Notes under the pieces: model-generated
What the model saw: the letters and a program-made list of their open reading frames with translations, nothing else
What the model was told of the DNA's origin: nothing
The model's database searches: none
Part shown: positions 10,965 through 15,637 of the stretch, in pieces
Layout of the letters: every line of letters begins with the position of its first letter
How positions within the stretch are numbered: the stretch's first letter is position 1
Virus record (IMG/VR): IMGVR_UViG_3300028388_001758
Location: 1 to 31,603 of that record
Source of the DNA: a virus
Direction: 5' to 3' (one strand)
DNA: 31,603 bases
Position numbers and translations under genes: made by a program

Positions 10965-10993
10965 ATTATAGTCAATCCGCTGAAAAAATGGCA
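10965..10993 (-). promoter_or_regulatory. Candidate phage-sigma promoter for the recombination/replication block
   Basis: Minus strand reads TGCCAT, 17 bases, TATAAT followed by ATATA. It shares the -35 element TGCCA, the T-run after it, the ACTATAATATA core and the exact spacing with three other sites in the window. The -35 lies in the last codons of the sigma-factor gene; the expected start near 10958 leaves a short leader before the AGGAGG of the annealing-protein gene. Inferred to be read by the phage sigma factor. Confidence 0.72.
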
Positions 10994-11472
10994 CGAAGTT
11001 TTTGTAAATTTTTACGATTTACTTTGTTCACATAGGATTGACTCAACCTCAATTCTTCAGCAATCTCAATCTGGGTCTTACCTTCCAGATAAAACATCTT
11101 CGTGATGTTTCCGTACGGAAGTTTATCAAGCTCCTCAAGGATGTCCTGCTCCAGCGTCCACTCCTCTGGTGTTGGGTTGTAAGGGTCTTGAAGCATATCT
11201 AAAAAACTTGTTTCTTCGCCTACGAGGTCATCTAAGGCTTCAGCGTAGTTTCTGTTTTTTATTCTTAGTTCTTTGATTTTATAATGACACGATTTTGTCA
11301 AGTATGTGCTGAAGGCGATGCCTTTGTCTGCATCAAACTTATCCGCACAGTTGATTGCAACCATATAAAGCTCTTGCATTATATCATCGAATGTAAAATT
11401 GTTTATCTTTGTTTTGTGTGCTATTTTTCTAAGTAAGTTTTCGTAATCTAAAAGTATTGTCTCTCTATCCAT
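10972..11472 (-). CDS. Phage RNA polymerase sigma factor (sigma-70 family, regions 2 and 4)
   Basis: 166-aa sigma factor with only the two core domains. Region 2: DDIMQELYMVAINCADKFD (about 29-47), then GIAFSTYLTKSCHYKIKEL (about 51-69), the promoter-melting and -10-reading helices. A linker with PTPEEW follows, and region 4 has a clear helix-turn-helix, GKTQIEIAEELRLSQSYVNK (131-150), then NRKNLQKLRAI. It would redirect host RNA polymerase to phage promoters. Its natural targets are probably the four TGCCA-N17-TATAATATA sites in this window, one of which overlaps its own 3' end and another of which lies upstream of it. GGAGAC precedes the start at 11472. It closes the cassette of small early genes. 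Confidence 0.9.
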   Translation of the reverse strand: MDRETILLDYENLLRKIAHKTKINNFTFDDIMQELYMVAINCADKFDADKGIAFSTYLTKSCHYKIKELRIKNRNYAEALDDLVGEETSFLDMLQDPYNPTPEEWTLEQDILEELDKLPYGNITKMFYLEGKTQIEIAEELRLSQSYVNKVNRKNLQKLRAIFSAD

Positions 11473-14464: not shown

Positions 14465-14494
14465 ATTATACCATATCGGGGTCAATCCTGTCAA
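14465..14494 (-). promoter_or_regulatory. Strong early host-type promoter with extended -10
   Basis: Minus strand: perfect TTGACA, 18 bases, perfect TATAAT, with TATGG before the -10. Close copy of the promoter at 13251-13280, including CCGATATG. Located 45 bases before the start of the 104-aa gene. Expected to be read by the host housekeeping sigma factor right after infection. Confidence 0.85.
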
Positions 14495-14535: not shown

Positions 14536-14898
14536 TTAGAAGTGGTTCGCGCCTGTTGCTTCGTTTCTGATGTAGGCGATGCGTATCGCTTTTGATATTG
14601 CTTCACTGTATCTGATGCATAAATCTTTATAATATCGTTTAATCTGCGCAGGGCGTCCGCTCATCGTTGTGATGTGTCTCGCTGTCTTTGTATTATATAC
14701 GCGGATGTATCCCTTACTGTCGACGATGTGAACCTCTGTGCCGTTCCTGTGGTTCTTGTCTACTTCGAACGCATCCAGCGGGGCGCCTTCGTTGTAGGCT
14801 TGTATGCGTGTGTGTCTATCCTCTAGATGCGCCGTGTGTTCTCCGCTCTCTGTGTAGCGTTTCGCCTCTTCTGGTGTTAATTTTCTTAATGTCTTCAT
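14536..14898 (-). CDS. Hypothetical protein, 120 aa
   Basis: Unrecognised. Charged N-terminal helix (MKTLRKLTPEEAKRYTESG), a central beta segment (TEVHIVDSKGYIRVYNTKTA) and a helical basic C-terminus (IKRYYKDLCIRYSEAISKAI). AGGAGG lies before the start at 14898, the best binding site of the early cassette. It is the first gene downstream of the hammerhead ribozyme, so its mRNA would have a processed 5' end after cleavage (leader of about 120 bases). Confidence 0.75.
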   Translation of the reverse strand: MKTLRKLTPEEAKRYTESGEHTAHLEDRHTRIQAYNEGAPLDAFEVDKNHRNGTEVHIVDSKGYIRVYNTKTARHITTMSGRPAQIKRYYKDLCIRYSEAISKAIRIAYIRNEATGANHF

Positions 14899-14961: not shown

Positions 14962-14988
14962 GTACCGCTCGCGTTGCGGTGTTCGCCT

Positions 14989-15039
14989 GTCTCATCAGTA
15001 GCGGGGGGCTATCCGCTAGACGCCTCTCGGCGTTTCGAC
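14989..15039 (-). ncRNA. Hammerhead self-cleaving ribozyme, type II
   Basis: All invariant core bases of a hammerhead are present in correct cyclic order on the minus strand. GUC (15039-15037) is the 3' strand of stem II; GAA (15036-15034) is followed by stem III ACGCC/GGCGU (15033-15029 with 15024-15020, five perfect pairs, GAGA tetraloop); C17 is 15019, giving a GUC cleavage triplet, so the cut falls between 15019 and 15018; stem I is UAGCGG/CCGCUA (15018-15013 with 15004-14999, six perfect pairs, eight-base loop); CUGAUGA is 14998-14992; GAC (14991-14989) closes stem II. The RNA ends lie in stem II, so it is a type II permutation. Stem II has only three canonical pairs; loop I GCC (15009-15007) could pair with GGC at 14987-14985 as a stabilising contact. 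It begins two bases after a stop codon. Confidence 0.85.
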
Positions 15040-15041
15040 TT

Positions 15042-15365
15042 TTAGATGTTTAAGCTGGTGCCTGTCGCCCATTCGTAGACGGCTAGCTGATTTGACTTTT
15101 TCCCGATTGCTTGCGCTTCTTCGAATTCGTCGGTGTGTACGCTGTCGGTGTCTAAGTACCAGATGCCGTTATCATACCATAGGCCGTAGTTCTGAAGCTC
15201 CATAATGTCGATAAGTAGAATAAGTTCGTTAAGGTTTGTACTTTGTAGCTCTTTTGATTCTGGCGTTGATACTTGATAGCCATATGTGAAGCGTTGAGGT
15301 TCTCCGTTGAAAACTGTAATCCCGTGGTCTCTCTCGATGAAGTGCTTAAGGTTTAATGCTGTCAT
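15042..15365 (-). CDS. Hypothetical protein, 107 aa, directly upstream of the ribozyme
   Basis: Unrecognised. Start chosen at 15365 (MTALNLKHFIERDHGITVF); a G-run at the end of the preceding gene serves as binding site, and the longer reading to 15398 lies inside that gene. Sequence alternates short strands (ITVFNGEPQRFTYGYQV) with an acidic helix (TNLNELILLIDIMELQNYG) and a Trp-rich patch (GLWYDNGIWYLDTD). Its TAA at 15044-15042 is separated by two bases from the stem II strand of the hammerhead, so a ribosome at the stop would cover part of the ribozyme. Confidence 0.75.
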   Translation of the reverse strand: MTALNLKHFIERDHGITVFNGEPQRFTYGYQVSTPESKELQSTNLNELILLIDIMELQNYGLWYDNGIWYLDTDSVHTDEFEEAQAIGKKSNQLAVYEWATGTSLNI

Positions 15366-15369
15366 TTTT

Positions 15370-15564
15370 TTACGCCCCCCACTCTTGCACGATTTCAATT
15401 TTTCGCGGGTCTGTCGTGCTTACTGCTTCTATTCTTACGCCGTCATTAAATTTATTATCGTCAAGCTTTATTGCGATTTCTAAAGCCTCTTGATAAGTCT
15501 CACATACTGCACGAACCTTCGCGCCTTCATAGTCGTGTAATTCACTCACGATGTATATTGTCAT
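15370..15564 (-). CDS. Hypothetical small phage protein, 64 aa
   Basis: Resembles the widespread small phage and bacterial proteins that begin with a (V/I)YxVxxxHDYEG motif (here MTIYIVSELHDYEGAKVRAV) followed by a helix (TYQEALEIAIKL). Function of that group is not known to me. AAAGGAG lies before the start at 15564, which is 45 bases downstream of a good early promoter, so it heads an early transcript that also carries the 107-aa gene and the ribozyme. Confidence 0.78.
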   Translation of the reverse strand: MTIYIVSELHDYEGAKVRAVCETYQEALEIAIKLDDNKFNDGVRIEAVSTTDPRKIEIVQEWGA

Positions 15565-15608: not shown

Positions 15609-15637
15609 ATTGTATAACGATTATATAAATTTGTCAA
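15609..15637 (-). promoter_or_regulatory. Early host-type promoter
   Basis: Minus strand: perfect TTGACA, 17 bases, TACAAT. The spacer is AT-rich. It stands 45 bases before the start of the 64-aa gene and has an A/T-rich run upstream that could serve as an UP element. Different in detail from the extended -10 pair at 13.25 and 14.47 kb. Confidence 0.8.

Follow-up and report, generated by a model that had tools for sequence, protein, structure and literature searches.

Does an intergenic gap near the start of a phage's leftward gene block encode a self-cleaving RNA, and if so, what would the cut do to the transcript that carries it? The window analyzed here is the whole 31,603-nt IMG/VR virus record (IMGVR_UViG_3300028388_001758), not the ribozyme alone. 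The first-pass annotation of this DNA had described a complete hammerhead core in permuted type II order on the minus strand, and a base-by-base reading found each of the coordinates it gave to be correct. From 15039 to 14985 the minus strand reads GUC-GAAA-CGCC-GAGA-GGCG-UC-UAGCGG-AUAGCCCC-CCGCUA-CUGAUGA-GAC-A-GGC, with all hammerhead core nucleotides present in type II order and a GUC cleavage triplet at 15021-15019 (Table 1). In hammerheads of types I and III, one of the two stems flanking the cut is open. Here loops close both stem I and stem III, and stem II is the open one, which is the type II permutation. The cleavage position put forward earlier, 15019/15018, agrees with the hammerhead alignment.

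Table 1. Ribozyme parts and neighboring features, in window coordinates
Feature	Position	Strand	Basis or remark
Type II hammerhead ribozyme, from stem II through the candidate tail pseudoknot strand	14985..15039	-	Rfam RF02276; phage-derived model
Stem II 5' strand GUC	15037..15039	-	Pairs with 14991-14989; 3 bp: G15039-C14989, U15038-A14990, C15037-G14991
Core GAAA (G12 A13 A14 A15.1)	15033..15036	-	Base-by-base reading
Stem III hairpin, 5 bp, loop GAGA	15020..15033	-	Base-by-base reading; 15033-15029 with 15024-15020 (A-U, C-G, G-C, C-G, C-G), loop 15028-15025
Predicted cut between C15019 (C17) and U15018	15018..15019	-	Inferred from hammerhead alignment
Stem I hairpin, 6 bp, 8-nt loop	14999..15018	-	Base-by-base reading; 15018-15013 with 15004-14999, loop AUAGCCCC at 15012-15005
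Candidate loop I pseudoknot strand GCC	15007..15009	-	Position matches covarying pseudoknot of relatives
Core CUGAUGA (C3 to A9)	14992..14998	-	Base-by-base reading
Stem II 3' strand GAC	14989..14991	-	Base-by-base reading
Candidate 3' tail pseudoknot strand GGC	14985..14987	-	Tail offset same as in most relatives
Sigma-70-like promoter TTGACA-17-TACAAT ahead of operon	15609..15637	-	Consensus match only
First operon gene, 64 aa, DUF7336	15370..15564	-	Family match
Upstream gene, 107 aa, no known family	15042..15365	-	Stop codon TAA ends 5 nt ahead of GAAA
Downstream gene, 120 aa, no known family	14536..14898	-	GGAGG ahead of gene
Consensus promoter TTGACA-18-TATAAT with TG, downstream of 120-aa gene	14465..14494	-	Consensus match only

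The Rfam family for type II hammerheads, RF02276 (Hammerhead_II), scores 33.6 bits over 15040-14981, with E = 2.6e-5 for a 301-nt stretch searched with all 4227 Rfam families, E = 0.0027 for the whole window with all families, and E = 6.3e-7 for the record with RF02276 alone. It is the sole Rfam family matched in the window, and control genomes gave no RF02276 match at E 0.01. Two other families matched on the 301-nt stretch, RF_site9 and CRISPR-DR33, were at chance level and were set aside. A covariance scan of this kind had been named by the first-pass annotation as a check on its assignment; it recovers the family, but the score falls 3.4 bits short of the gathering cut-off of 37, and a default Rfam scan therefore reports nothing for the ribozyme. 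The gathering score is a curation threshold and corresponds to no defining structural feature.

A structural descriptor matched once in the window and in none of 400 dinucleotide shuffles, looser stems included, which together with the RF02276 E-values upholds the earlier judgment that a chance origin is very unlikely. The folding energy of the ribozyme region is itself unexceptional (z = −1.5), as it would be if a GC-rich pair of hairpins resembled a hammerhead by accident. Such an assembly by chance is hardly credible given the E-value on the record (6e-7), the lack of the motif in any shuffle, and the fact that strand, intergenic site and stop-codon spacing are all correct; the covariance-model score and the position refute it in practice.

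To gather relatives, IMG/VR was searched with a pattern that comprised stem III and the core only, leaving stem I free. The pattern matched at least 120 stretches, and with duplicates removed, 133 of the matches listed, the window included, were examined. In 124 of these 133 listed matches the two core parts directly enclose a stem I with 4 or more pairs, which is strong evidence that they are real ribozymes because stem I was absent from the search pattern. Type II hammerheads are abundant in IMG/VR. Several contigs (L106, L188) carry 2 to 4 of them in series, and among the matches listed these serial copies usually have a stop codon on one side and a Shine-Dalgarno sequence on the other.

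From the matches listed, 27 relatives chosen for a 3-bp stem II were aligned by MAFFT. Stems I and II and the pseudoknot covary in these relatives, with 12 of 18 pairs changing on both sides; 94% of cells are paired, compared with 25-41% in slid controls, and 98 cells are changed on both sides, where shuffles gave 27 and slid controls 5-23. Stem III is invariant among the 27 because it was included in the search pattern, and the pairing of stem II was a selection criterion, so that the independent evidence from covariation is that of stem I and the pseudoknot. A covariance model derived from the 27 phage relatives, with the window excluded, scores the ribozyme at 58.8 bits (E 2.7e-14) over 15042-14978, a score that is inflated because the pattern used to find the relatives had drawn on the window's stem III. 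Core, stems, RF02276 match and phage-derived model agree on the type II hammerhead identity proposed at the outset.

The three-pair stem II, regarded earlier as a weakness, proves to be ordinary: 3 bp is normal for the family and is the commonest length of an adjacent stem II among the viral matches listed, and type II hammerheads with a stem II as short as 2 bp have been described (Perreault 2011, PMC3088659). The first-pass annotation had also suggested a contact between GCC in loop I and GGC in the 3' tail. Contact between loop I and the tail is the standard, though not universal, pseudoknot of type II hammerheads (PMC3088659), and among the matches listed 78 of 133 have loop I/3'-tail complementarity of at least 4 bp, compared with about 26 when tails are dealt at random. 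In the ribozyme here, the complementarity is indeed present and in the family's usual register, but it amounts to 3 bp, which alone is not significant. The covarying pseudoknot of the relatives has 4 bp, and loop I here has 8 nt as compared with the usual 10. Cleavage became about 20-fold slower when one pseudoknot was cut back from 6 bp to 4 (Perreault 2011, PMC3088659).

The 3-bp pseudoknot, the loop I two nucleotides under the usual length and the Rfam score below cut-off would all suit an element that is a hammerhead by descent, too slow or too prone to misfolding to cut in the cell, and persisting as a relic or in a passive role, for instance as a 3'- or 5'-end hairpin. An alternative nested fold would suit it too, being slightly more stable than the hammerhead (the nested minimum-energy fold of the 60-mer is at −19.2 kcal/mol and the hammerhead fold without pseudoknot at −17.8 kcal/mol), but the nested calculation omits the stability added by the pseudoknot. 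Moreover, the core is unchanged and the stems are all perfect, whereas decay is expected to cost core bases, and we consider a slow or relic element quite improbable. Self-cleavage at this site is the expected outcome of the hammerhead fold, by established chemistry. Our preferred reading is that this is a type II hammerhead that cleaves its transcript, to which we give a probability of about 0.88.

The ribozyme is on the coding strand, between the stop codon (15042) and the start of the 120-aa gene (14898), near the start of the leftward gene block. Its neighbors are those claimed earlier, the 64-aa and 107-aa genes upstream and the 120-aa gene downstream. The leftward block encodes ribonucleotide reductase, polymerase A, a primase-helicase, a Sak-type annealing protein and a small sigma-like factor, and the rightward block contains terminase, portal and capsid genes. 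The 166-aa protein encoded at 10972-11472 (minus strand) carries sigma-70 regions 2 and 4, and this small phage-coded sigma factor may switch expression between both gene blocks. Between the divergent blocks, the stretch 15858-15600 (minus strand) is AT-rich with several A/T runs and promoter-like sites, and could hold an origin or control region. A small second hairpin (CCGC AACGCGA GCGG; 14980-14960, minus strand) lies directly after the ribozyme in the unusually long gap ahead of the 120-aa gene.

The polymerase is closest to those of Paenibacillus larvae phages (about 38% identity), a likeness that, taken by itself, hints at a Firmicutes host. No relatives of either flanking protein were found in IMG/VR, and the record had no DNA similarity to 50,697 phage records. 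Closer relatives were sought via the metallophosphoesterase, the primase-helicase, the terminase and a Pyr_excise-like protein, and the contigs found through these four that were searched contained no type II hammerhead apart from weak matches (19.3 bits in L205 and 13 bits in L226). Near relatives in IMG/VR are short contigs, mostly without a syntenic stretch, and the nearest stop short of the gap.

In the mechanism that we propose, transcription would begin at the promoter near 15620 and proceed through a leftward, early-side phage operon with the ribozyme in an intergenic gap. The RNA would then fold and cut itself between 15019 and 15018, leaving the 64-aa and 107-aa genes on an upstream mRNA and the 120-aa gene, possibly with others, on a downstream one. 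The perfect promoter match at 14494-14465 implies that the RNA being cut may be a short three-gene transcript. This promoter match overlaps the TTG listed as the start of a 129-aa ORF, and the true start of that gene probably lies further downstream.

A 2',3'-cyclic phosphate on the stem III hairpin would terminate the upstream product, and the 5'-OH of the downstream product would lead into the stem I hairpin; both products would be sealed by hairpins at the cut because the type II permutation closes stems I and III. Both product ends should resist end-dependent RNases, and separate mRNA lifetimes for the genes on either side would therefore be a likely effect. Splitting of the early polycistronic RNA into two mRNAs, each with a hairpin at the cut, is the most likely outcome; that separate mRNA stability on both sides is the ribozyme's role is a more tentative suggestion, to which we give somewhat less than even odds.

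The placement of the ribozyme after a stop codon follows a broader regularity. Of 124 distinct phage examples among the matches listed, window included, 106 have GAAA 2-12 nt after the end of an ORF of 50 codons or more; for random positions in these contigs the figure is 136 of 2340 (5.8%). The commonest distance from stop to GAAA in these listed matches is 2-3 nt, with the stop codon often overlapping stem II, and a Shine-Dalgarno sequence and start codon lie downstream in 103 of the 124, at a median of 56 nt after the cut. The opposite strand has little of either feature. The ribozyme here is typical in its stop spacing, and its cut-to-start distance, 120 nt, exceeds that of almost every relative listed. 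We found no statement of this stop-codon rule in the literature, in a search of incomplete coverage.

This spacing is compatible with a refinement of the preferred reading in which cleavage is coupled to translation: a ribosome terminating against stem II would mask GAAA and stem III, and the RNA would be cut only when no upstream termination takes place. In most of the phage examples listed, the end of the stop codon is 2-9 nt ahead of GAAA, in many cases within stem II; a ribosome engaged in termination occupies some 12-15 nt past the stop codon. The tight packing of compact phage genomes could, however, produce such spacing without any function, and the stop codon here is just outside stem II, and we regard a translation-coupled switch as unlikely. 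A similarly low probability attaches to the more general proposal that phage type II hammerheads, the window's included, are stop-codon-coupled mRNA separators in which termination gates cutting and both products are hairpin-sealed flush with the cut. The regularity itself, seen in more than 100 phage contigs, is that a type II hammerhead follows immediately on a stop codon in the coding strand and precedes a Shine-Dalgarno sequence by a short distance; it makes the role of bacterial hammerheads testable as a matter of how mRNAs are separated and how stable they are, with a possible link to translation.

The ribozyme is a genuine further member of a large known family and presents no novelty as such. 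Active type II hammerheads located between the genes of phages have been on record since 2011 (PMC3088659); cleavage was demonstrated for several intergenic hammerheads in vitro, and in vivo for an Agrobacterium triple array, and the ribozymes were proposed to divide long phage transcripts into mRNAs the length of a gene or operon (Perreault 2011, PMC3088659). The ribozyme here shares with RF02276 the order stem II - GAAA - stem III - GUC - stem I - CUGAUGA - stem II, the short stem II and the location between genes in phage or prophage DNA, along with a candidate loop I/3'-tail pseudoknot (PMC3088659). It differs in the 3 bp of that candidate pseudoknot, where most members have 4 bp or more, in its 8-nt loop I, and in a score 3.4 bits under the gathering cut-off. 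The record has a single copy, whereas some phages have several type II hammerheads. The theta-ribozyme paper (PMC10879173) makes no mention of hammerheads. HRIMA-1 (type SGC; PMC10085705) has the same catalytic core parts in a non-circular order, whereas the ribozyme here has the ordinary circular type II (GSC) order. Like the multiple hammerheads that flank single genes such as ardA in Agrobacterium and other prophages, it lies between genes of one predicted transcript, and in both cases splitting of polycistronic phage RNA is proposed; unlike those ardA arrays, it is one ribozyme, and its neighbors are proteins without known function (PMC3088659).
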